8,365 nt of DNA from Spirochaeta sp. GTDB taxonomy: Bacteria; Spirochaetota; Spirochaetia; Spirochaetales_E; Spirochaetaceae_B. Positions 1 through 8,365 of the stretch are shown one piece after another. The notes under the pieces were generated by a model. That model was not told the origin of the DNA, ran no database searches, and saw only the letters and a program-made list of their open reading frames with translations. Position 1 is the first letter of the stretch. Each line of letters opens with the position of its first letter. The DNA lies in assembly GCA_030590585.1 (NCBI GenBank), contig JAUUYD010000080.1, forward strand, positions 1 through 8,365, given 5' to 3'. The position numbers and the translations under genes were made by a program.

Positions 1-404
1 AGATCTTCCCTGCTGAGGATACGGCCTTCTTTAAGCAGAGACTGATCGAAGCCCCATCCCACAACAGTGGTACCGGGTTTCAGCTTCTTGTCCCTGATAT
101 GATTTTTCATCCGCTGGACGATATCCTCAATAGACTGAATATCATCAATGGGGGGTGAAGAGAGGCTCAGGAAACTTGACATCATGGCCACCATGAGAAA
201 GTGACTGTGGGGATCGATGAATCCCGGAAGCATGGTTTTCCCCTTCAAATCCATAAGCCTGGTGCCGGATTTTCGGTACTTCAGGGCCTCTTCCTGATTT
301 CCAACGAATGCGATTCGTCCTTTTCTGACTACTACAGCTTCAGCCTCAGGATGGTTGTCGTCGATGGTGAGGATATCTCCGTTGATGTAAATTGTGTCTT
401 TCAT
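1..404 (-). CDS. YtcJ-type metal-dependent amidohydrolase, N-terminal part
   Basis: This is the first 134 codons of a gene that continues past the left edge. The product begins MKDTIYINGDILTID, the beta-sandwich opening of amidohydrolase-superfamily enzymes (Amidohydro_3, YtcJ-like). GKTMLPGFIDPHSHF follows, with the HxH metal ligands at about residues 66 and 68. Further on, VVGWGFDQSLLKEGR near residue 118 is typical of the YtcJ group. Such enzymes hydrolyse amide, formyl or cyclic amide bonds in the cytoplasm; the exact substrate cannot be read from the sequence. The ATG at 404-402 follows GGAG at 413-410 with a 5-nt spacer. The gene lies 16 bp downstream of the M20 gene on the same strand, so it is probably the last or a late gene of that operon. 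It may act on the same N-acylated compound as the M20 enzyme. The family call is firm and the role is inferred. Confidence 0.88.
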   Translation of the reverse strand, partial: MKDTIYINGDILTIDDNHPEAEAVVVRKGRIAFVGNQEEALKYRKSGTRLMDLKGKTMLPGFIDPHSHFLMVAMMSSFLSLSSPPIDDIQSIEDIVQRMKNHIRDKKLKPGTTVVGWGFDQSLLKEGRILSRED

Positions 405-420
405 AATCACTCCGTTTTAT

Positions 421-1884
421 TCAGCTCAAGTATCTGATCGCAGTCAGTATATAGAGTTTAACTGCATCAACCAGGGTGTCCAGATCGGCGTACTCATTAG
501 CTTCATGAACATTGCCGCCCCCGGGACCGGCGATGAATATATCGGTTAAACCTGCCTGGCGCATATTTCCGGCATCGGTAAAACCCGGTGAGAACAGATA
601 CAGGGGTTTTGTCTCATAAACTGAAGTAAAGGACTCTGCCAGACAGCGGCCGAACTCTGAGGATGTATCGGTGAGGGATCCGTCTCCGGCGGTGATGATT
701 TCAATCCGGATATCCGTCGGCTCATTCCTGAATTTATTCTTATCCTGAAGATTTCTATATCCGCCGGGAAGCTCGACTCTGTAACCCAGTTTCCCGGAAT
801 ATTTCACCAGGGCGTCTAAAAGTTCCTGCACCGGCAGTCCGGGCATAACACGGAAATCCGCTTCAAGCTCGCAGGTATCGGGGATGACGTTAGTTTTCAG
901 TCCGGCTCTTATCTTGTTGAAACTGTAAGTGGTTTTATATATTGATGATATGGACGATTTGTCCCGGTCCAGAGGGTTGGTTTCATCTCCGGTGGTCATT
1001 TTCAGCTTTGGAATATCTTTGAGGGAATAGCGGTCCAGCAAAGACTTTATGAATCCGAAGGGTGTCATGGATATGCGTCTACGGGGAATCTTCAAACCTT
1101 TCTTTGCCCTGCTCATGAAACGGGCGGCTTTGTTCAGGGCGTTGCTCTTCTCTTTGGGCATACTTCCATGCCCTGCCACACCGAAGAAGGTGAACTTGAG
1201 CCAGCATGGCCCCTTTTCCCCGACAGCGATTGCCGGGGTTTGAAAAAAGGCCGCGGTTGTCGGTTCGGATATGATTGCGGCATCGGCTCGAACAACCTCG
1301 GGATGGTATTCGGGCATGAATGCCGAACCGAAAGCACCGTGTGTTTCTTCATCAGGAGTGAACCACATCTGCAGACGGCCTTTGGGGAGACAGTTGTTCT
1401 TAGCCAGTATTTTCATGGCCATCATCTGACAGGCCACTCCCGCTTTCATATCCGCGGACCCCCGGCCGAAGAGTTTGCCATCCTTTACAACTCCGCTTAA
1501 TGGAGGGGTGTCGGGGTTCCATTTACTTTCGTTGAAAGGGACGATATCCAGATGGCCGCAGAACTGCAGGGTCTTTCCCGATTGGGTGCTGCTCAGGGAT
1601 GCGATAAGATTGTAGTAGAAATCAACCCCGGCGGAATCTTCGGCGGGGAAGGGAGCCTTGTAGAGCTCCGTCTCCATCCCGGCATCGTTCATCCAGTCCC
1701 GGGTGAATTCGAAGATTTCACTACGATCGCAGAATTCCTTCTCAGAGTTGTTAGTGGAATCGATCCGGACGAGCTTCGATAGCAGATCGATCAGCTCCTC
1801 TTTTATTTCATCCGCCCTGGACAGCAGCAGCTTTTCCGAGCCGGAAAGAGGCCGGTCCGGAACAACCCTCTTTTCTTTAATCAT
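421..1884 (-). CDS. M20 family zinc metallopeptidase / N-deacylase (ArgE/DapE-like)
   Basis: This 487-residue protein belongs to the M20/ArgE/DapE/CPG2 family, cytoplasmic co-catalytic metalloenzymes that remove acyl or aminoacyl groups from amino compounds. The expected landmarks appear in order: GHLDIVP with H111 and catalytic D113; GRGSADMKAG with bridging D145; TPDEETHGAFG with general base E179 and metal ligand E180; ISEPT with E207; the dimerisation-domain GVAGHGSMP with H239; and GGGNVHEANEY with the last metal ligand H460. All key residues are present, so the enzyme should be active. It is somewhat longer than a typical DapE, with an N-terminal extension of about 25 residues. Its ATG overlaps the stop of the upstream membrane-protein gene by 4 bp (ATGA, 1884-1881). 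No strong Shine-Dalgarno sequence is visible, which suggests translational coupling. Neighbours suggest it releases a free amine or amino acid for the aminotransferase. The substrate is unknown. Confidence 0.93.
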   Translation of the reverse strand: MIKEKRVVPDRPLSGSEKLLLSRADEIKEELIDLLSKLVRIDSTNNSEKEFCDRSEIFEFTRDWMNDAGMETELYKAPFPAEDSAGVDFYYNLIASLSSTQSGKTLQFCGHLDIVPFNESKWNPDTPPLSGVVKDGKLFGRGSADMKAGVACQMMAMKILAKNNCLPKGRLQMWFTPDEETHGAFGSAFMPEYHPEVVRADAAIISEPTTAAFFQTPAIAVGEKGPCWLKFTFFGVAGHGSMPKEKSNALNKAARFMSRAKKGLKIPRRRISMTPFGFIKSLLDRYSLKDIPKLKMTTGDETNPLDRDKSSISSIYKTTYSFNKIRAGLKTNVIPDTCELEADFRVMPGLPVQELLDALVKYSGKLGYRVELPGGYRNLQDKNKFRNEPTDIRIEIITAGDGSLTDTSSEFGRCLAESFTSVYETKPLYLFSPGFTDAGNMRQAGLTDIFIAGPGGGNVHEANEYADLDTLVDAVKLYILTAIRYLS

Positions 1885-2585
1885 ACTTTCGATAATTTTT
1901 TCTGTTCAAAGCGGTAAAGCACATAACGCCAACCCACGGCAATGGCAAGGAATAACGGCATGGTAATAGATGACATTCTTGAAAAGGTTGCGAATCCCAG
2001 GGCAAGGGTGAGAGCTATAGTGATAAGGCTGGGTACCGATGCGGATTTCAACGCCATCCGGTCCTTGAAGAAAATCGGGGTTGCCAGTGCTCCCATCAGT
2101 GCAGGCATCAGATTGTCGAAAGCCGGCTTGAACTGGGGGGACTGCATAATGGGGAGCAGAAAGCCCATGCCTATCATGCCTGCTGTGAGTATCACGACAG
2201 TTACCAGAGATGATACAGCTACAGCAATGAGTGAGATGACTTCAGCTTCTTTGGATCCCTGTTCCACTCCGGCCAGTTTGACACTGCTTACTGCGGAGGG
2301 CAGCTTCAGATTGACTGTATTACCGGTGATGAAGCAGAGATAAAGACCGCTGGCTCCTACGATGGGAGCGTAACTGAAAAACTCAACAAAGGTGAGAATA
2401 CCCATGAGGCTGAAAATACCGATGAATCCCTTTATCGTAGGACCCATATCGATTTTTACATCGCTTGTGATTGTCATTACCAGAGGAACGGCAATCATGG
2501 ATATGACGACGAGAGCCGATGAAATTCTTCCGAACCGATGCATTCCAAGCTGATAACTGTCCAGTGTTTTTTTTGTATCACTCAT
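1881..2585 (-). CDS. Small polytopic membrane protein, putative partner subunit of a transporter
   Basis: This is a 234-residue integral membrane protein with about six or seven hydrophobic segments, at roughly residues 19-42, 52-72, 74-92, 115-144, 158-174, 183-201 and 205-223. It ends in a positively charged tail (RFEQKKLSKV). The most distinctive stretch is SYAPIVGASGLYLCFITGN followed by LKLPSA, around residues 71-98. It is rich in glycine and polar residues inside a hydrophobic region, so it could be a re-entrant or substrate-contact loop. I do not recognise a characterised family. The gene lies 9 bp after the DUF5058-like gene, and its Shine-Dalgarno AGGAGA (2596-2591) overlaps that gene's stop codon. 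It then overlaps the M20 gene by 4 bp. The arrangement points to an obligate membrane pair serving the peptidase pathway, by import of the substrate or export of a product. This is inference from position and topology. Confidence 0.8.
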   Translation of the reverse strand: MSDTKKTLDSYQLGMHRFGRISSALVVISMIAVPLVMTITSDVKIDMGPTIKGFIGIFSLMGILTFVEFFSYAPIVGASGLYLCFITGNTVNLKLPSAVSSVKLAGVEQGSKEAEVISLIAVAVSSLVTVVILTAGMIGMGFLLPIMQSPQFKPAFDNLMPALMGALATPIFFKDRMALKSASVPSLITIALTLALGFATFSRMSSITMPLFLAIAVGWRYVLYRFEQKKLSKV

Positions 2586-2594
2586 ATCATTCTC

Positions 2595-3329
2595 CTAAGC
2601 TGCTAATAGTGTAAAAAGATTATTGAATGGTATGGCCGAAACCATACCGATCACCATACTAATTGGAAAAGAGAAGTCTTTCAGGGCGCTGATACCGGTT
2701 TTATTGGCAATCTTATCCAGCAGGACAACTGAGATTCCGGCAATGATTACCGTTGTGATGCCTGTAGGATTACTGAAATTAACCAGCTGCGGAATACCCA
2801 GAACAGCCATAACACCGACGAACAGGGCCGGAATCGCTTTCTCGATGAAACCGCCCTTTCCCTTCATGGATGTAATCTTCATGTCATAGCGCTTGAGGGC
2901 GATGATGTTCCAGATCGGATACGAAATGATTCCAATGGTCATTACCCAGGCGACACTCAGAAAAATCGAAGGTGTCAACCCTGAGTCGGCAATACCGGAT
3001 AAACCGAATGCCTTCACTGTCATATCCGCGGCCATATTCTCATACATGGCCGAACCGATCACCGAAAGTCTCAGCCAGGGCAGGTATTTTCCCAGAGCGG
3101 GCATCAGAACTGCCATGATGATGATTATGGGCAGTGATGGCACGATGGAGAAAATAGCACTGTTCACCACTACTTTCTTCAATACGCCTTTATCGATACC
3201 GATTCTGTCGGCTTCCCTCCATGCCCTCATCAGAAAGATTACAGCTTGTACCGTAACTATAACGATGGGGATGACGCATAGAATCAGCATGAGGCCTGAA
3301 TTTGCGAGGATTGAAGTTTCACTGTTCAT
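2595..3329 (-). CDS. DUF5058-like membrane protein, putative transporter subunit
   Basis: This is a 244-residue integral membrane protein with about six hydrophobic segments, near residues 12-34, 54-78, 120-144, 163-183, 189-206 and 220-242. A basic loop after the first segment (RAWREADRIGIDKGVLKK) suggests that loop is cytoplasmic. SAIFSIVPSLPIIIIMAVL, and later LPWLRLSVIGSAMYENMAA near residue 83, match my memory of DUF5058, a family without known function. This family assignment is from memory and moderately sure. The start codon at 3329 follows AAGGAG (3342-3337) with a 7-nt spacer. The gene sits 13 bp after the aminotransferase stop and 9 bp before the second membrane-protein gene. No ABC ATPase, binding protein or SLC-type motif is present, so if this is a transporter it is not of a standard class. 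A sensor or channel role is possible. Confidence 0.82.
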   Translation of the reverse strand: MNSETSILANSGLMLILCVIPIVIVTVQAVIFLMRAWREADRIGIDKGVLKKVVVNSAIFSIVPSLPIIIIMAVLMPALGKYLPWLRLSVIGSAMYENMAADMTVKAFGLSGIADSGLTPSIFLSVAWVMTIGIISYPIWNIIALKRYDMKITSMKGKGGFIEKAIPALFVGVMAVLGIPQLVNFSNPTGITTVIIAGISVVLLDKIANKTGISALKDFSFPISMVIGMVSAIPFNNLFTLLAA

Positions 3330-3342
3330 ATAAATACTCCTT

Positions 3343-4710
3343 TTATTCAGCGTAATGATCGATGGTTTTCAGAGCTTCATCCATGATGGCAACGCCTTCA
3401 TCGATATCGGCTCTTGTGGCGATTAGCGGCGGAGCCATGGCGATAACGTTACTCGGGTTGGCCGCCATAGCCATCATGCCGAGTTCCCCCAGCCTTCCGG
3501 CGAGTTCCAGTTTAGGATTCCTGCCCTTTCGGATTTTTGCATCGATGGGCACAAGAGGTTCTTTTGTCTTTCGGTCTTTAACAAGTTCCAGGCCGACGAA
3601 AAGTCCCAGGCCCCGGACATCCCCGATAACCGGATGCTTCTCCATCAGTTCCTTGCCCTTTTCCAGAAGATATTTCCCGAGAACAGCAGAGTTCTCAATC
3701 AGATTGTCTGTTTCGTAGATGCTGATAACTTCCAGCGCGGCTGCGCAGCCAAGGGCATGTCCGGCATAAGTGGCGCCATGGCTGAACATGTGGTTCTCGA
3801 AATGTCGGCCGATTTCCTTCTTTGTTATAGTGGCCCCAAGGGGCACATATCCCGAAGTTATGCCCTTGGCCATGGTGAGAATATCCGGGACTGTATCCCA
3901 ATGATCCATGGCAAACCATTTCCCGGTTCTGCCGAAGCCGGTCATGATTTCATCTGCGATTAAAAGAATCCCATATTTATCAAGAACTTTTCGTAACATG
4001 GGGAAGTACTCGGGAGGCGGAACAATGATACCATTGGCACCGGTAACCGGCTCACAGATCAGTCCGGCTATCTGCTCATCACCACCTTCCAGCTGTATGA
4101 CTTCATCAACATATTTGACACACTGCATATCGCAATCCGGATAGCTTTTTCCGAACATGCACCTGTAGCAGTAGGGCTGGGGAACTGTTACAACTTCGGT
4201 TTTACCGCTGATAACAGCCCAGCTTCGGGGATCCCCTGCTGAGACGGACATGGATGCTCCAGTCCCCCCGTGGTAGCTCCTGTAGCGGCTGATTATTTTT
4301 CTCTTACCGCTGTACTGCTGGCAAATCTTGATTGCCGCCTCATTGGCTTCGGTACCACCCAGGGAAATAAAGGAATAACCCAGATCTCCGGGAGTTATTT
4401 TCTCAAGCAGTTTCCCCAGTTTTGCCCTGGGCTCAGTGGAAAAACTCGGGGCAAAGGAGGTCAGAGTTCTAGCCTGTTTACAGATGGCCTCAACCACCCT
4501 CTCATTCTGATGCCCGATATTGTGGCTGACGAAACAGGAGCTGAAATCCAGCCGTTCCCGGCCGTCTTCCGTTGTAAACCGGATGCCCTTGGCTGACACA
4601 ACTCTCATTGGTGACTTCGGGGGCTGGTAGGTCCAGGATTGATAGAGGTTTTCTACCTCGTAATTATCCAGGTCCTGTTTCTCGGCAGGAATCGCTTTCA
4701 AATCTTCCAT
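3343..4710 (-). CDS. PLP-dependent class III (omega) aminotransferase
   Basis: The 455-residue product is a fold-type I aminotransferase of class III, the group holding GABA, beta-alanine, taurine-pyruvate and ornithine aminotransferases. It moves the terminal amino group of an omega-amino compound to a keto acid and releases an aldehyde. In numbering from the ATG at 4710, it shows GGTEANEAA (about 118), SYHGGTGA with Y146 and H147 to stack on the cofactor, ICEPVTGANG with E220, LIADEIMTGFGRTGKWF with D253 binding the pyridine nitrogen, MAKGIT with Schiff-base lysine K282, and SHGATYAGHALGCAAAL with T314. A four-cysteine cluster lies at about residues 181-197. I chose ATG 4710 over an in-frame GTG at 4725 because GAGGTG ends 7 nt upstream of the ATG. 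This is the first gene of the left operon. The acylating aldehyde dehydrogenase in the divergent operon would consume its aldehyde. Taurine, GABA or beta-alanine are possible substrates, not distinguishable here. Confidence 0.93.
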   Translation of the reverse strand: MEDLKAIPAEKQDLDNYEVENLYQSWTYQPPKSPMRVVSAKGIRFTTEDGRERLDFSSCFVSHNIGHQNERVVEAICKQARTLTSFAPSFSTEPRAKLGKLLEKITPGDLGYSFISLGGTEANEAAIKICQQYSGKRKIISRYRSYHGGTGASMSVSAGDPRSWAVISGKTEVVTVPQPYCYRCMFGKSYPDCDMQCVKYVDEVIQLEGGDEQIAGLICEPVTGANGIIVPPPEYFPMLRKVLDKYGILLIADEIMTGFGRTGKWFAMDHWDTVPDILTMAKGITSGYVPLGATITKKEIGRHFENHMFSHGATYAGHALGCAAALEVISIYETDNLIENSAVLGKYLLEKGKELMEKHPVIGDVRGLGLFVGLELVKDRKTKEPLVPIDAKIRKGRNPKLELAGRLGELGMMAMAANPSNVIAMAPPLIATRADIDEGVAIMDEALKTIDHYAE

Positions 4711-4717
4711 AGTTGAA

Positions 4718-4723
4718 CACCTC
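4718..4723 (-). promoter_or_regulatory. Shine-Dalgarno site that fixes the aminotransferase start
   Basis: GAGGTG on the minus strand stands 7 nt before the ATG at 4710-4708. It also overlaps the alternative GTG start at 4725-4723, which has no ribosome-binding site of its own. The ATG is therefore preferred and the protein loses five residues relative to the longest reading frame. Confidence 0.75.
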
Positions 4724-4811
4724 ACGTGTATCTGAAGGTTGTATATCCGGTGGCGGTGACGAGCATCCCTGCTTTTGCGGCAATATACTGCCGTTAATAA
4801 TCATGCTATCA

Positions 4812-4840
4812 TTGATAAATGTGTTTGTCTATACAAATAT
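4812..4840 (+). promoter_or_regulatory. Possible gntR promoter
   Basis: TTGATA at 4812-4817 could be a -35 box, with AAATAT at 4835-4840 as a poor -10 box after a 17-nt spacer. The -10 match is only three of six, so this is tentative. The operator at 4823-4845 would cover the spacer and the -10, which fits autorepression. I found no convincing promoter for the leftward aminotransferase operon in the same intergenic region. Confidence 0.35.
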
Positions 4841-4845
4841 ACAAC
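4823..4845 (+). promoter_or_regulatory. GntR/HutC-type operator, copy 1
   Basis: The core TTTGTCTATACAAA (4824-4837) is a palindrome with one mismatched pair. A further half-site TATACAA (4838-4844) follows directly, so TATACAA occurs twice, 8 bp apart. The whole 23-bp stretch matches the reverse complement of 5640-5662 at 21 positions. It ends 23 bp before the gntR ATG. Palindromes of the GTNTANAC type are known for the HutC subgroup of GntR regulators, so this is most likely the site of the adjacent regulator. From here it could control both divergent operons. Confidence 0.75.
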
Positions 4846-4868
4846 TATCATAAAAGGCAGGATTGAAC

Positions 4869-5633
4869 ATGGGATTAGATCCAAACAGCAAGATTCCGAA
4901 ATACCTTCAAATCAGAAAGTGGCTTCTTGGAATGATTAACCGGGGCCGGATTGAAGTCGGGTCTAAAATCCCAACTGAAGAGGAAATTGCCAAGCGGTTC
5001 GGTGTGAACCGGATGACTGTAAGACAGGCTCTGGATGAACTGGTACTGGAGAAAATGATTGTCCGGAAAAGGGGTGAGGGCTCAATCCTGATATCCGCAA
5101 AACCAAGAGATTATGTCTATGAGCTTGATAATATTACCAGTTTCGATGATGACATGCAGGTTCATGGGATCGAGCCCATCCATGAGGTTTTGAGGGTTGA
5201 AGCATTTGAGGCGGATAAAACAATTTCAGGGAAGCTGGAGCTCGGTGATGATAATAAAGTTGTACAGCTGCTGAGTGTTAAGAGAGTCGGTGATGAACCG
5301 GTATTGATAGAGCGGAGCTTCCTTCCTTACGCCGAGTTCTCAAAACTCCTTGAGATGAATATCACCGGCCCATTTTACCACCTTCTGGTTGAAGAGTTCG
5401 GTGTAATACTCCACCATTCCACACAGATTTTCAGTGCCGTAAATCCTCCGGAAGAGGAAATGGAGATATTCGGGATGACCGAAACCGTTCCCTGCATGCT
5501 CCTTGAAAGCATCGCCTACGATCCTGATGACATTCCCATTGAGGTTCTTCACTCCTATTACCGGGGAGACCGTTACAGCTTCAAGGCGACTTCCGGTGAA
5601 TATCTGTTTAATCAGGATTTACTTGACAGTTAA
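4869..5633 (+). CDS. GntR family transcriptional regulator, HutC/UTRA type
   Basis: The 254-residue product has an N-terminal winged helix-turn-helix of the GntR family at about residues 10-75. It includes KYLQIRKWLLGMI, the signature IPTEEEIAKRFGVNRMTVRQ, and the wing VRKRGEGS. A C-terminal effector-binding UTRA domain spans about residues 88-245, with VKRVGDEPVLIERSFLPY and IPIEVLHSYYRGDRY as typical strands. Such proteins are usually dimeric repressors released by a small metabolite, often a pathway substrate or intermediate. The ATG at 4869 is preferred over an upstream TTG at 4863 because AGGA (4859-4862) is 6 nt from the ATG and touches the TTG. The gene lies between two copies of a 23-bp palindromic element, so it probably controls itself, the downstream dehydrogenase and ligase genes, and perhaps the divergent aminotransferase operon. 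The effector is unknown; the amine, aldehyde or acid of the pathway is a natural guess. Confidence 0.94.
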   Translation: MGLDPNSKIPKYLQIRKWLLGMINRGRIEVGSKIPTEEEIAKRFGVNRMTVRQALDELVLEKMIVRKRGEGSILISAKPRDYVYELDNITSFDDDMQVHGIEPIHEVLRVEAFEADKTISGKLELGDDNKVVQLLSVKRVGDEPVLIERSFLPYAEFSKLLEMNITGPFYHLLVEEFGVILHHSTQIFSAVNPPEEEMEIFGMTETVPCMLLESIAYDPDDIPIEVLHSYYRGDRYSFKATSGEYLFNQDLLDS

Positions 5634-5651
5634 CCATTCTTTGTATATTTG
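5623..5651 (+). promoter_or_regulatory. Internal promoter for the dehydrogenase-ligase genes
   Basis: A perfect -35 hexamer TTGACA lies at 5623-5628, inside the last codons of gntR. Possible -10 boxes are TATTTG at 5646-5651 (17-nt spacer, three of six matches) or TATATT at 5644-5649 (15-nt spacer, five of six matches). Neither pairing is ideal. The -10 area is inside operator copy 2, so a bound regulator would block it. The leader would be very short, since the Shine-Dalgarno site starts at 5663. Confidence 0.5.
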
Positions 5652-5662
5652 TATATACAAAC
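5640..5662 (+). promoter_or_regulatory. GntR/HutC-type operator, copy 2
   Basis: TTTGTATATACAAA at 5648-5661 is a perfect 14-bp palindrome. The half TTTGTATA is repeated immediately upstream at 5640-5647, so the element has three half-sites. Reversed, it matches copy 1 at 4823-4845 in 21 of 23 positions, including the extra half-site. It abuts the Shine-Dalgarno site of the dehydrogenase gene, so a bound protein would cover the -10 region and likely transcription start. The conservation against copy 1 and the position make a regulatory role convincing, while the binding protein is inferred from the neighbouring gene. Confidence 0.8.
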
Positions 5663-5667
5663 GGAGG
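5663..5667 (+). promoter_or_regulatory. Shine-Dalgarno site that fixes the dehydrogenase start
   Basis: GGAGG stands 8 nt before the ATG at 5676-5678. The same reading frame opens earlier with a TTG at 5649, but that codon lies inside the operator palindrome and ahead of this site, so it is not a credible start. Confidence 0.8.
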
Positions 5668-5675
5668 AACGCTCA

Positions 5676-7115
5676 ATGGACACCCGGGACATCCACACAA
5701 TGATAGATGTAATGATAGATGCCATGATCGAGAGGGCCCGTAAAGCCCAGGAAGCTGTTTCGAACTATTCCCAGGAACAAATCGACGAGGTTTGCCTGGC
5801 CATCGGCTGGCAGATGTACGAAGACGGAAACATTCGGAAGCTTGCAGAAGCCGCTGTTGCGGAAACCGGCATGGGAAATGTCAAAGACAAGATTGGCAAA
5901 CACAAGGGGAAGGTATTAGGTGTCCTGAAAGATATCAAGGGCGCAAAGTCGGTGGGGCTGATTGAAGAAGACAAGGTAAAAGGCCTGAAAAAATACGCCA
6001 AACCAGTGGGCGTTGTAGGTGCCCTCACTCCGGTTACCAATCCCACAGCTACCCCGGCGAGTAACTCCATCTCCATTCTCAAGGGCCGCAATGCTGTAAT
6101 TTATGCACCTCACCCCAAAGCGAAAAAGAGTTCCGGCATGGCTGTGGAGATGATGAGGCAGGGGCTGAAGAAAATTGGTGCCCCGGAAGATCTGATTCAG
6201 ATTATCGAGGAACCGAGTATCGAGGCTTCCAACATTCTGATGGCCAAAGTTGATGTTGTCCTGGCCACCGGCGGCGGTGCCATGGTGAGGGCCGCCTATT
6301 CCAGCGGTACCCCCTCATACGGTGTGGGGCCGGGGAATGCCGTACAGATAATTGCCGAAGATGCTGATGTCAATGACGCGGTGGCTAAAGTTGTTTTGAG
6401 TAAGGCTTTTGATAACGCCACAAGCTGCTCCTCTGAGAATGCCGTCATCGTTCATGAAGACGTGTTTGACGCAGTGATTGCGTCCCTGAAAAAAGAAGGC
6501 ACCTACATATGTTCCCCTGAGGAAAAATCCCGACTTGCCAAGTGGATGTGGGTTCCCAATAAAAAGGGTCATCTGGCCCTCAATCCGAAAATCATCGCTA
6601 AATCCGCCGAAATCATCGCTGCCGATGCCGGTATTAAAGTACCTGAGGGAACAAGGGTTCTGGCTGTGGAAGCGGCTCCTCCTGTTACCGATGAAAAATA
6701 TGCCGACGAGAAGATCTGCCCGGTACTGGCCATCGGGGAATACGCGAATTTCGAAGAGGGCTTCAGTCTCCTCAAAGAGATAACCGACCATGCCGGTACC
6801 GGACATTCCTGCGGAATACATACCTTCAACGAGAAGTATATTCACCGCATGGGGATGGAGATGAAATCCAGCCGGATTATGATTCGCCAGCCCCAGGCTC
6901 CGGCCAACGGCGGTAACTTCTTTAACGGGATGCCTTCCACCGTTACTTTGGGCTGCGGCAGCTGGGGCGGGAATATTACCACTGAAAATATCTATTACAA
7001 ACATTTTCTGAATATCACCTGGCTGTCTGTACCCATTCCCGTGGTGAAACCGACAGATGAAGAGATGTTCGGTGAGTCTTGGAATAGTCACGGAAAAGAG
7101 GGGGCAGGTGAATGA
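5676..7115 (+). CDS. CoA-acylating aldehyde dehydrogenase (sulfoacetaldehyde/succinate-semialdehyde type)
   Basis: The 479-residue product belongs to the acylating branch of the aldehyde dehydrogenase superfamily (EutE/PduP, AdhE N-domain, SauS, clostridial SSADH). These enzymes convert an aldehyde, NAD(P)+ and CoA to an acyl-CoA. The family pattern is clear: PVGVVGALTPVTNPTATP (about 110-127) and nucleotide-binding ATGGGAMVRAAYSSGTPSYGVGPGN (about 197-221, shown in part as motif). The catalytic cysteine is C251 in FDNATSCSSENAVIV, with E254 near it. The loop around C251 reads ATSCSSEN rather than the xxICASEQ of EutE/AdhE, which points to a separate specificity group. No alcohol-dehydrogenase domain or microcompartment-targeting extension is evident. 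The stop overlaps the ligase beta-subunit start (ATGA, 7112-7115), so the acyl-CoA is very likely handed to that ligase. The aldehyde is probably made by the divergent aminotransferase. Sulfoacetaldehyde is my first guess (SauS role), succinate semialdehyde the second. Confidence 0.92.
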   Translation: MDTRDIHTMIDVMIDAMIERARKAQEAVSNYSQEQIDEVCLAIGWQMYEDGNIRKLAEAAVAETGMGNVKDKIGKHKGKVLGVLKDIKGAKSVGLIEEDKVKGLKKYAKPVGVVGALTPVTNPTATPASNSISILKGRNAVIYAPHPKAKKSSGMAVEMMRQGLKKIGAPEDLIQIIEEPSIEASNILMAKVDVVLATGGGAMVRAAYSSGTPSYGVGPGNAVQIIAEDADVNDAVAKVVLSKAFDNATSCSSENAVIVHEDVFDAVIASLKKEGTYICSPEEKSRLAKWMWVPNKKGHLALNPKIIAKSAEIIAADAGIKVPEGTRVLAVEAAPPVTDEKYADEKICPVLAIGEYANFEEGFSLLKEITDHAGTGHSCGIHTFNEKYIHRMGMEMKSSRIMIRQPQAPANGGNFFNGMPSTVTLGCGSWGGNITTENIYYKHFLNITWLSVPIPVVKPTDEEMFGESWNSHGKEGAGE

Positions 7116-8248
7116 AGCTTTTCGAGTACCAGGCCAAAGAGGCCTTTAAAAAGTACGATATACCCACACCGAAGGGGTTGCTCTTTGACGAGGGCGCTTT
7201 TGAGGATACCTCGGCTATAATCGGATTTCCCGTGGTTCTCAAGAGTCAGCTGCTTATGGGCGGACGGGGTAAAGCCGGACTGATAAAAATTGCCAAAGAT
7301 GTCTCTGAGGCAAAGAGTATTACCGATGAACTATACGCTTCTTCTTATGGCGTCCGCCGTATTCTCGCAGAAGAAGCTGTGGATATCGCTTCTGAAATCT
7401 ACCTTTCTGTAACCTGGGATCCGGCGGCTGCTACGGCCCTGGTGATTGCCTGTGCCGAAGGCGGTGTGGAAATTGAGGAACTGGCTAAAACCGCTCCTGA
7501 GAAAATCATCCGGGAAGCTGTTGATGTAGACCGGGGGCTGCTTCCTTTTCAGGCCTCGAATCTAGCCTACCAGCTGGGGCTGGAAGGTGATACGGCCAGG
7601 GCGGCAGCCAAGGTCATCCAAAATCTGTATAAAGTCTTTGATGCCTATGATGCGGAGCTGGCGGAAATCAATCCTCTGTTTATTACAAAAACCGGAGAGG
7701 TAATCGCCGGAGACGGGAAATTGGTGATCGATGATACGACTATCGTGAAGCATCCCGAATACGCACCCGGACGGGATTATTATGAAAGCGATGCGGAATA
7801 TGAAGCTGCCATCGACGGCATCCCATATCTGCAGTTCGACGGAAACATCAGCCTGATGTGTGCCGGTGCCGGACTTACCACCACAGTTTACGATCTGATT
7901 AACGATGAAGGCGGAAAGGTGGCCAACTATCTTGAGTTCGGCGGACCGAATTACCGCAGGGCTAAACGGGCCATGGAGCTCTGCCTCAAGAATGAAAGCA
8001 AGGTGATTCTCGTTGTTACCTTTGGAACCATCGCCCGGGCGGATGTGATGGCCGAGGGGTTGGTGGAGGCCATCAGAGAGCTGAAACCAACAGTCCCCAT
8101 CGTGACGTGTATCCGGGGAACCAACGAGGAAGAGGCGGTGAATATCCTGAAGTCCGCCGGACTTGAACCGATATTTGACACCGAAGAAGCGGTCCGGAAG
8201 GCAGTGGCCATCGCAGGTACGGGTACAGGCACAGGAGCCCAGGCATGA
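7112..8248 (+). CDS. SucC-like acyl-CoA ligase (ADP-forming) beta subunit
   Basis: The 378-residue product is related to the succinyl-CoA synthetase beta subunit. An ATP-grasp domain (about 1-235) opens with MKLFEYQAKEAFKKYDIPTP and holds K44, the GGRGK loop (50-54), E95, N187 in AEINPL, and D201 in AGDGKL. A CoA-ligase domain (about 240-365) contains AGAGL, NYLEFGGPN, TFGTIARAD and IRGTNEEEA. Catalytic ATP-site residues are conserved. Loops that in SucC read VGGGA, FGGIVR and RLEGTN are altered, to FGGPN, FGTIAR and CIRGTN, so the acid substrate is probably not plain succinate. With the alpha subunit the enzyme would convert acyl-CoA, ADP and phosphate to acid, CoA and ATP, or the reverse. 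It overlaps the dehydrogenase gene and the alpha gene by 4 bp each. The C-terminal tail IAGTGTGTGAQA comes from a short GGNACN nucleotide repeat and looks unstructured. A SauC-like sulfoacetate-CoA ligase is a plausible identity. Confidence 0.92.
   Translation: MKLFEYQAKEAFKKYDIPTPKGLLFDEGAFEDTSAIIGFPVVLKSQLLMGGRGKAGLIKIAKDVSEAKSITDELYASSYGVRRILAEEAVDIASEIYLSVTWDPAAATALVIACAEGGVEIEELAKTAPEKIIREAVDVDRGLLPFQASNLAYQLGLEGDTARAAAKVIQNLYKVFDAYDAELAEINPLFITKTGEVIAGDGKLVIDDTTIVKHPEYAPGRDYYESDAEYEAAIDGIPYLQFDGNISLMCAGAGLTTTVYDLINDEGGKVANYLEFGGPNYRRAKRAMELCLKNESKVILVVTFGTIARADVMAEGLVEAIRELKPTVPIVTCIRGTNEEEAVNILKSAGLEPIFDTEEAVRKAVAIAGTGTGTGAQA
8211..8237 (+). repeat. Short hexanucleotide repeat in the ligase beta-subunit 3' end
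   Basis: Imperfect 6-bp units (GCAGGT, ACGGGT, ACAGGC, ACAGGA) run in tandem and encode the alternating Gly-Thr tail of the beta subunit. The unit keeps the frame, so a change in copy number would only alter tail length. Confidence 0.45.
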
Positions 8249-8365
8249 GTATTTACATTGATGAGAAAACCACAGTTCTGATTCAGGGCATCACCGGAAA
8301 AGAGGGGCAGTACTGGACCGAGCATATGATGGGTCTGGGCACACAAGTACTTGCCGGAGTAACGC
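8245..8365 (+). CDS. SucD-like acyl-CoA ligase (ADP-forming) alpha subunit, N-terminal part
   Basis: Forty codons are visible before the right edge. The product starts MSIYIDEKTTVLIQGITGKEGQ, then YWTEHMMGLGTQVLAGVT. This is the CoA-binding Rossmann opening of succinyl-CoA synthetase alpha subunits, with the GITGKEG loop at residues 15-21 matching the GFTGxxG nucleotide loop and the AGVT stretch matching GGVTPGKGG. The active-site phosphohistidine lies further downstream and is not in the window. The ATG overlaps the beta-subunit stop (ATGA, 8245-8248), as expected for subunits made in equal amounts. WTEHMM replaces the usual FHSEQAI-like segment, another sign of divergence from housekeeping SucD. 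It completes the two-subunit ligase that would turn the dehydrogenase's acyl-CoA into free acid with ATP formation. Confidence 0.9.
   Translation, partial: MSIYIDEKTTVLIQGITGKEGQYWTEHMMGLGTQVLAGVT

Follow-up and report, generated by a model that had tools for sequence, protein, structure and literature searches.

Divergent genes around one GntR-UTRA regulator in Spirochaeta sp. as a candidate route from taurine to sulfoacetate with ATP formation

Gene content and predicted regulation

The window analysed here, that is, the whole stretch of 8365 bases (49.6% G+C) from Spirochaeta sp. contig JAUUYD010000080.1, carries two divergent gene sets that flank a single GntR-UTRA regulator gene and that together may turn taurine into sulfoacetate with the formation of ATP (Table 1). 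Most of the genes were recognised by profile matches, and the frames are open as far as the window extends. The rightward set comprises the regulator, a CoA-acylating aldehyde dehydrogenase, the beta subunit of a CoA ligase and the first 40 codons of the alpha subunit. The dehydrogenase frame is open from 5649 to 7115 on the forward strand, its likely ATG is preceded by GGAGG, and by their coordinates the dehydrogenase and beta genes as well as the beta and alpha genes overlap by four bases in an operon-like manner. The leftward set consists of five genes, the first of which encodes a class III aminotransferase, followed by a DUF5058 protein, a second membrane protein, an M20 deacylase and an Amidohydro_3-type amidohydrolase. 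An earlier note on this DNA had described an aminotransferase, a dehydrogenase and a two-subunit ligase around one regulator, and all of these genes are found as named; the alpha subunit is only begun in the window, so that the two-subunit form rests on the gene start and on related genomes, and the four leftward genes behind the aminotransferase had been left out.

An 18-bp pattern derived from the window itself, TGTCTATACAAATATACA, occurs at two places in the window when up to three mismatches are allowed, 5' of the regulator gene and 5' of the dehydrogenase gene (0.00 matches expected in the shuffled window), and a 22-nt inverted pair, 95% complementary, goes with these predicted operator copies. 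The same pattern has two matches in the locus L001 of Spirochaeta sp. UBA9216 (genome G001), at the same two intergenic positions, with one mismatch at the place of copy 1 and two at the other (0.01 expected); a looser pattern, relaxed after L001 had been inspected, gave identical places there. The 10-bp core of the pattern is present in 6 of the 62 loci examined, all belonging to G001 or to Spirochaetales CSMAG_3007 (genome G010). Both gene sets would form one regulon under this predicted operator, as we infer from the sequence.

The gene order in L001 is two amidohydrolase genes, M20, membrane protein, DUF5058 and aminotransferase on one side, and regulator, dehydrogenase, ligase beta, ligase alpha and a DASS-family carrier on the other. 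G010 holds the same gene kinds on contigs C518, C76 and C198 (L010, L031 and L075), which we infer to be adjacent from gene halves at the contig ends, and its order is partly reshuffled, one amidohydrolase gene lying between the aminotransferase and the regulator and another past the DASS gene. The window itself contains no gene for such a carrier.

Table 1. Features of the window, with positions in the window, strand and main evidence
Feature	Position	Strand	Evidence
Amidohydro_3 amidohydrolase, N-terminal part, truncated at window start	3..410	-	PF07969 45 bits
M20 metallo-deacylase, ArgE/DapE kind	421..1884	-	TIGR01910 192 bits (cut-off 217.6, not reached); PF01546
Membrane protein, helical in low-confidence model, possible transporter half	1881..2585	-	no Pfam/NCBIfam match
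DUF5058 membrane protein, possible transporter half	2595..3329	-	PF16481 203 bits
Class III aminotransferase, proposed taurine aminotransferase	3343..4725	-	PF00202 310 bits
Predicted operator copy 1, TGTCTATACAAATATACA, separating the divergent gene sets	4826..4843		0 mismatches
GntR-UTRA regulator, open reading frame; probable ATG 4869	4863..5633	+	PF00392, PF07702
Predicted operator copy 2, directly 5' of dehydrogenase gene	5642..5659		1 mismatch vs copy 1, opposite strand
SqwD-like CoA-acylating (sulfoacet)aldehyde dehydrogenase, putative; likely ATG 5676	5676..7115	+	PF00171 77 bits; sulfoquinovose-cluster clade, SH-aLRT 100
SqwK-like ADP-forming CoA ligase, beta subunit	7112..8248	+	PF08442, PF00549; motif GTIA
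SqwL-like ligase alpha subunit, ATG 8245, first 40 codons, truncated at window end	8245..8365	+	translation

Affinities of the dehydrogenase and the ligase

The oxidative sulfo-transketolase (sulfo-TK) pathway of sulfoquinovose (SQ) breakdown (Chu et al. 2023) ends, in Acholeplasma, with SqwD and SqwKL, which yield sulfoacetate and ATP, and a variant of the pathway is reported for Spirochaetes, Firmicutes and Tenericutes (PMC11659671, PMC12890257). A scan of genome contigs with the window dehydrogenase returned 15 loci, 12 of them at an identity of at least 63% (L001-L011, L013). Split-transketolase genes lie near the dehydrogenase and ligase genes in eight of the 12 (L002, L004, L005, L007, L008, L009, L011 and L013; in L007 and L013 just one transketolase half survived the filter for open reading frames), an RpiB-like gene in seven of these eight (not L004) and a GH31 gene in six (not L002 and L009). 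The GH31 protein of L008 scores 933 bits (cut-off 553) on PRK10426, which we take to be the YihQ sulfoquinovosidase family, and its isomerase 403 bits on the sulfoquinovose isomerase model, below the cut-off of 700. Two further loci, L001 and L010, are like the window, and a profile scan of open reading frames detected neither a split transketolase nor sulfo-sugar isomerases beside the dehydrogenase and ligase genes of the window or L001. L003 begins at a contig edge, and L006 (477-10048) holds the dehydrogenase, ligase and DASS genes without a transketolase; upstream of them lie a transaldolase-like gene, about 2 kb away, and genes for a DeoR regulator and an AP_endonuc_2 protein.

To place the dehydrogenase, a quick maximum-likelihood tree was built from 63 rows, among them homologues P0002-P0040 of the 120 listed; branch values came from the Shimodaira-Hasegawa-like approximate likelihood ratio test (SH-aLRT), with no bootstrap. 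Nine rows, those of the window, L001 and P0002-P0008, group as one set (SH-aLRT 99), which nests in a clade of 51 rows (SH-aLRT 100) that holds all eight sulfo-TK-type copies, and outside this clade lie the SauS proteins of Azospirillum and Ruegeria as well as SucD of C. kluyveri; the tool warned of long branches among the outgroups. A fasttree run with P0002-P0120 brought the same nine rows together (90), its deeper nodes being weaker. The copy of L010 (3357-4744) was left out of the 63-row tree because its gene breaks frame, through assembly error or decay. Identity to the window dehydrogenase is 62-69% for the eight SQ-cluster copies, 45% for Azospirillum SauS and 44% for SucD. When eight rows of the window's set (P0006 being omitted as identical to L001, and gene surroundings having been seen for the window and L001 only) were compared with the eight SQ rows, one of the 175 columns fixed in both sets differed (Glu/Asp, residue 340) and 174 were invariant; a control of four against four SQ rows gave 3 of 202. 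Furthermore, 13 residues common to both types are missing from seven outgroup rows, and the catalytic cysteine is, by homology, Cys 251.

Sulfoacetaldehyde dehydrogenase is the transferred JGI name of 11 among the 120 dehydrogenase homologues listed. SafD is a non-acylating dehydrogenase, and a SafD route is therefore one without ATP; on the NCBIfam SafD model, the dehydrogenase of the window scores no more than 33 bits.

The ligase can be read through its substrate-contacting motifs. Succinyl-CoA synthetase holds the far acid group with an alpha-subunit tyrosine and a beta-subunit GIV motif (PMC11489063). At the beta site the window has GTIA, as do the beta subunits of the 11 relatives in the alignment (L001-L009, L011, L013), where E. 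coli SucC has GGIV and Azospirillum SauC has GAFA. The alphas of the same 11 relatives have SLTN where 2yv1 has TLTY, and since this site falls past the window end, SLTN is an expectation for the window's own alpha subunit, the start of which matches L001 in 32 of 40 residues and other relatives in 23-33 of 40. GTIA and SLTN are also found in L074 and L075, and the combination of the two as a marker of the SqwKL family is an observation of our own. The window beta is 56-66% identical to the eight SQ-cluster copies and 38% to Azospirillum SauC, and it scores 325 bits on the succinyl-CoA synthetase model TIGR01016, below the curated cut-off of 375.6; in the alpha tree, the order inside the group is mostly not resolved.

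These data bear directly on two other substrates. Gamma-aminobutyrate could be converted through succinyl-CoA to succinate by enzymes like succinate-semialdehyde dehydrogenase and SucCD, in keeping with the best PDB match of the dehydrogenase, the CoA-acylating succinate-semialdehyde dehydrogenase 8cei, and with the membership of the ligase in the succinyl-CoA synthetase superfamily. SucD, however, lies outside the dehydrogenase clade, and the succinate-holding motif (as interpreted in PMC11489063) is missing from the window beta, as is the tyrosine from the relatives' alphas; tree placement and ligase motifs led us to reject succinate as the reading of the enzyme pair, and we regard the gamma-aminobutyrate route as very improbable. 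Homotaurine could likewise be converted to 3-sulfopropionate, as HpfX/HpfYZ of Enterococcus gilvus yield 3-sulfopropionate and ATP from 3-sulfopropionaldehyde (PMC11489063). Although that system resembles the proposed one in oxidising a sulfo-aldehyde via an acyl-CoA and an ADP-forming ligase, it takes a C3 substrate, and its signature residues, the His of HpfZ and the GIN of HpfY, are absent, with Asn in the relatives' alphas and GTIA in the window beta. The HpfXYZ reading was set aside on these residues; homotaurine is, moreover, termed non-natural in PMC11489063, and its use here seems scarcely credible.

Because the dehydrogenase falls in the SqwD-type clade and the ligase has the SqwKL-type motif in its beta subunit and, in relatives, that of the alpha, sulfoacetaldehyde is most likely the aldehyde, sulfoacetate with ATP the product, and taurine the amine. 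On this sequence evidence, the two enzymes likely convert sulfoacetaldehyde to sulfoacetate with ATP formation. The earlier note had proposed a succession from amine to aldehyde, acyl-CoA and acid with a gain of ATP and sulfoacetate as a possible product, and the dehydrogenase clade and ligase motifs support it. It had also raised firm clustering with succinate enzymes as the outcome that would speak against sulfoacetate; no such clustering was found, the dehydrogenase being placed among SqwD-type enzymes and apart from SucD, and the beta subunit being without the succinyl-CoA synthetase motif. The nearest likeness had been sought in SauS/SauCD, a comparison to be replaced, since the closest relatives are SqwD/SqwKL-type enzymes of sulfo-TK clusters, for which the oxidative sense, with ATP formation, has already been described (PMC11659671, PMC12890257).

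The aminotransferase and its relatives

The best PDB match of the aminotransferase is 6jix, a taurine:2-oxoglutarate aminotransferase (279 bits), and taurine--2-oxoglutarate transaminase is the transferred JGI name of 18 among the 120 homologues listed; on NF004718 the protein scores 442 bits, short of the cut-off of 472. We know of no amine other than taurine that gives sulfoacetaldehyde by transamination, and taurine is the probable amine source. A quick tree of 42 rows, with 24 of the 120 homologues and 6jix as the one characterised reference, carried a warning of long branches; 6jix groups in it with L042, L020 and L059 (SH-aLRT 99). L042 (G001:C96, 548-3331), from the same genome as L001, encodes a second SauS-like dehydrogenase (556 bits) adjoining this second aminotransferase, which groups with BkToa; no ligase was recognised alongside.

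Orthologues of the window aminotransferase are rare in spirochaetes: they turned up in 3 of the 392 genomes drawn from the phylum (E <= 1e-130) and, at E <= 1e-140, in 5 of the 394 drawn from the class and in 2 of the 7 from the order (the draws overlap and include G001). Other sources named for orthologues are Deltaproteobacteria, Thermodesulfobacteri... and Bacteroidetes. In the phylum of G002, none of 398 genomes had a match at E <= 1e-140, an empty result that is not proof of absence. Xsc gave no match above its cut-off in six genomes (0/6), with sub-cut-off matches in all six and in 14 of 14 control genomes.

The surroundings of several orthologues differ from those in the window. In L029 (G155:C2:384000-403900, 6420-11976), the gene of an orthologue of 74% identity is part of a row that also encodes a GntR-FCD regulator, an aldehyde ferredoxin oxidoreductase (AFOR) and a DASS carrier, the latter 45% identical to that of L001; this locus is possibly a ferredoxin-linked variant of the same conversion. 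In L052 (G408:C262, 272-3356), an orthologue of 78% identity is encoded divergently from a protein whose closest PDB match is sphingosine-1-phosphate lyase, and one may speculate that such a lyase, acting on a capnine-like sulfonolipid, would release taurine. A reading of this neighbour as an acetaldehyde-forming phosphoethanolamine phospho-lyase was set aside, as the loci that hold the dehydrogenase clade are of the sulfoquinovose type. In G432, a sodium symporter gene adjoins the orthologue, and ligase and DASS genes without SqwD lie elsewhere in the genome: in L074 (G432:C170:72500-92000, 2406-12859), SqwK, SqwL and DASS are present with matching motifs, no SqwD was recognised, and the ligase genes adjoin MTTB-family, URO-D-family and amidohydrolase genes. 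No interpretable genes surround the orthologues of G428 and G225.

The proposed taurine route, its alternatives and its relation to known systems

Taken as a whole, the locus is explained with reasonable confidence, on sequence grounds, as a co-regulated set that turns taurine into sulfoacetate with the formation of ATP. A single GntR-UTRA regulator would govern both divergent operons. The aminotransferase would transfer taurine's amino group to a 2-oxo acid, leaving sulfoacetaldehyde. From this aldehyde, the SqwD-like dehydrogenase would make sulfoacetyl-CoA at the expense of NAD(P)+ and CoA, and sulfoacetate, CoA and ATP would then be formed by the SqwKL-like ligase from sulfoacetyl-CoA, ADP and phosphate; the latter two steps are proposed from clade, motifs and the neighbours of relatives. 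Sulfoacetate would be exported by a DASS-family carrier, encoded in L001 as in G010 just 3' of the ligase and, in the case of the window, presumably beyond its end; the L001 carrier shares 63-70% identity with its counterparts in the sulfo-TK loci L002, L005 and L007. The sulfonate would be left uncleaved, and each taurine would bring in its nitrogen along with NAD(P)H and a single ATP. The M20 and Amidohydro_3 proteins and the two small membrane proteins would, at a guess, import the amine and free it from amide conjugates.

Several points weigh against this explanation. The best NCBIfam match of the dehydrogenase is SauS (NF047625) at 513 bits, which does not reach the curated cut-off of 600 (the SQ-cluster dehydrogenases of L007 and L008 likewise score under it), and the SQ clusters in the tree were recognised by gene content, the characterised Acholeplasma SqwD/KL sequences not being among its rows. 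GTIA and SLTN mark the SqwKL group and not sulfoacetate as such, because the motifs of Azospirillum SauCD differ. The window aminotransferase belongs to a clade of 31 rows (SH-aLRT 100) that leaves out 6jix, the Toa of Bifidobacterium, so that the taurine step put forward in the earlier note is a probable one only. The full operator pattern has no match in L010, where just the 10-bp core occurs, 5' of the regulator gene, and the window contains no TauABC-type importer.

Further such points come from looser relatives of the aminotransferase. The nearest row outside its clade, weakly (89), is the Halostagnicola protein (46%), which adjoins an AFOR gene and sits with M20 and amidohydrolase genes as well; a Deinococcus relative (46%) adjoins a gene for a CoA-acylating methylmalonate-semialdehyde dehydrogenase, and a Thermus relative (36%) sits with genes of the latter kind and of the M20 family. 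These neighbours suggest the use of beta-alanine, which could be freed by the M20 protein or amidohydrolase from carnosine-like peptides or ureido compounds and, after transamination, be carried by the dehydrogenase to malonyl-CoA and by the ligase to malonate and ATP, malonate resembling sulfoacetate in shape. Against this stand the SQ-cluster type of both enzymes, with the single differing column among 175 and identical ligase motifs (alpha read in relatives), and the M20 protein, for which an ArgE/DapE model comes first and not one of a carbamoylase or hydantoinase; hydrolysing malonyl-CoA would also squander a biosynthetic intermediate. We consider the beta-alanine route unlikely.

The dehydrogenase and ligase genes stand beside the aminotransferase orthologue in two of the seven genomes with surroundings read (G001 and G010) and apart from it in the other five, which likewise weighs against the taurine explanation. 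The sulfoacetaldehyde handled by the rightward operon could, on this view, have a different origin, and the leftward operon could act on an unrelated amine, the two having just the regulator in common, as the orthologues adjoining AFOR or the sphingosine-phosphate-lyase-like gene would illustrate. The pairing and the hydrolase set, however, are kept in three genomes despite the partly reshuffled order, and an operator-like site lies 5' of both sets in two of the three (the window and L001), which makes such a separation of the operons distinctly unlikely.

Compared with known systems, the oxidative end of the proposed taurine route is like SqwD/SqwKL of sulfo-TK loci in clade, D-K-L gene order, ligase motif (beta in the window, alpha in relatives), a DASS gene in several loci and the ATP-forming direction, but its sulfoacetaldehyde would arise from an amine via an aminotransferase and not from sulfoquinovose via a split transketolase, and the GntR-UTRA regulator and hydrolases set it apart. 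SauS/SauCD, of Bilophila and of an Azospirillum copy (L024) adjoining xsc, perform the same two reactions with the same superfamilies; the Bilophila enzymes, in contrast, are described as running toward sulfoacetaldehyde (PMC12890257), and those of Azospirillum differ in ligase motifs and in the low identities given above. The Neptuniibacter SafD route likewise leads from taurine through sulfoacetaldehyde to released sulfoacetate and serves nitrogen assimilation, and a conversion of taurine to sulfoacetate without a CoA route is thus already known (PMC12625764). An ATP-forming, CoA-linked route from taurine to sulfoacetate was not found in the titles and abstract openings of the papers that searches of the open-licence PMC literature listed. 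Since the parts are known and taurine to sulfoacetate is known only without the CoA route, the combination appears new. To our knowledge, the known taurine routes either break the C-S bond, by means of Xsc or isethionate lyase, or take the nitrogen alone. If the proposed route is real, the ATP-conserving release of sulfoacetate would give anaerobic fermenters an energetic reason to use taurine, sulfonate-respiring bacteria would have an additional supply of sulfoacetate, and the oxidative end of sulfoquinovose breakdown would be a portable module.

A wider reading, which we hold to be doubtful, is that of a bound-taurine regulon of anaerobic spirochaetes, in which taurine would be imported and released from amide conjugates by the two membrane proteins and the hydrolases, deaminated by an aminotransferase of a new clade and fermented by SqwD/SqwKL to sulfoacetate for export, with a gain of one ATP and the C-S bond left intact; together with the AFOR and DASS pairing of G155, this would imply a family of such fermentations feeding sulfonate-respiring neighbours. 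The DUF5058 protein is 65-67% identical to its counterparts in L001 and L031 and the second membrane protein 57-58%; the profiles of the two show no detectable relationship, and their predicted structures, from alignments of three sequences, have a mean predicted local distance difference test score of 46 and 42, respectively, too low to be of use. Amidohydro_3-type homologues occur also in L001 and L010/L075, and the M20 copies in L001 and L031 are 58% identical. A search for M20 homologues at E <= 1e-60 gave 71 proteins, which revealed no function; several of the named members of this small family are Asgard archaeal, which suggests transfer between archaea and spirochaetes.

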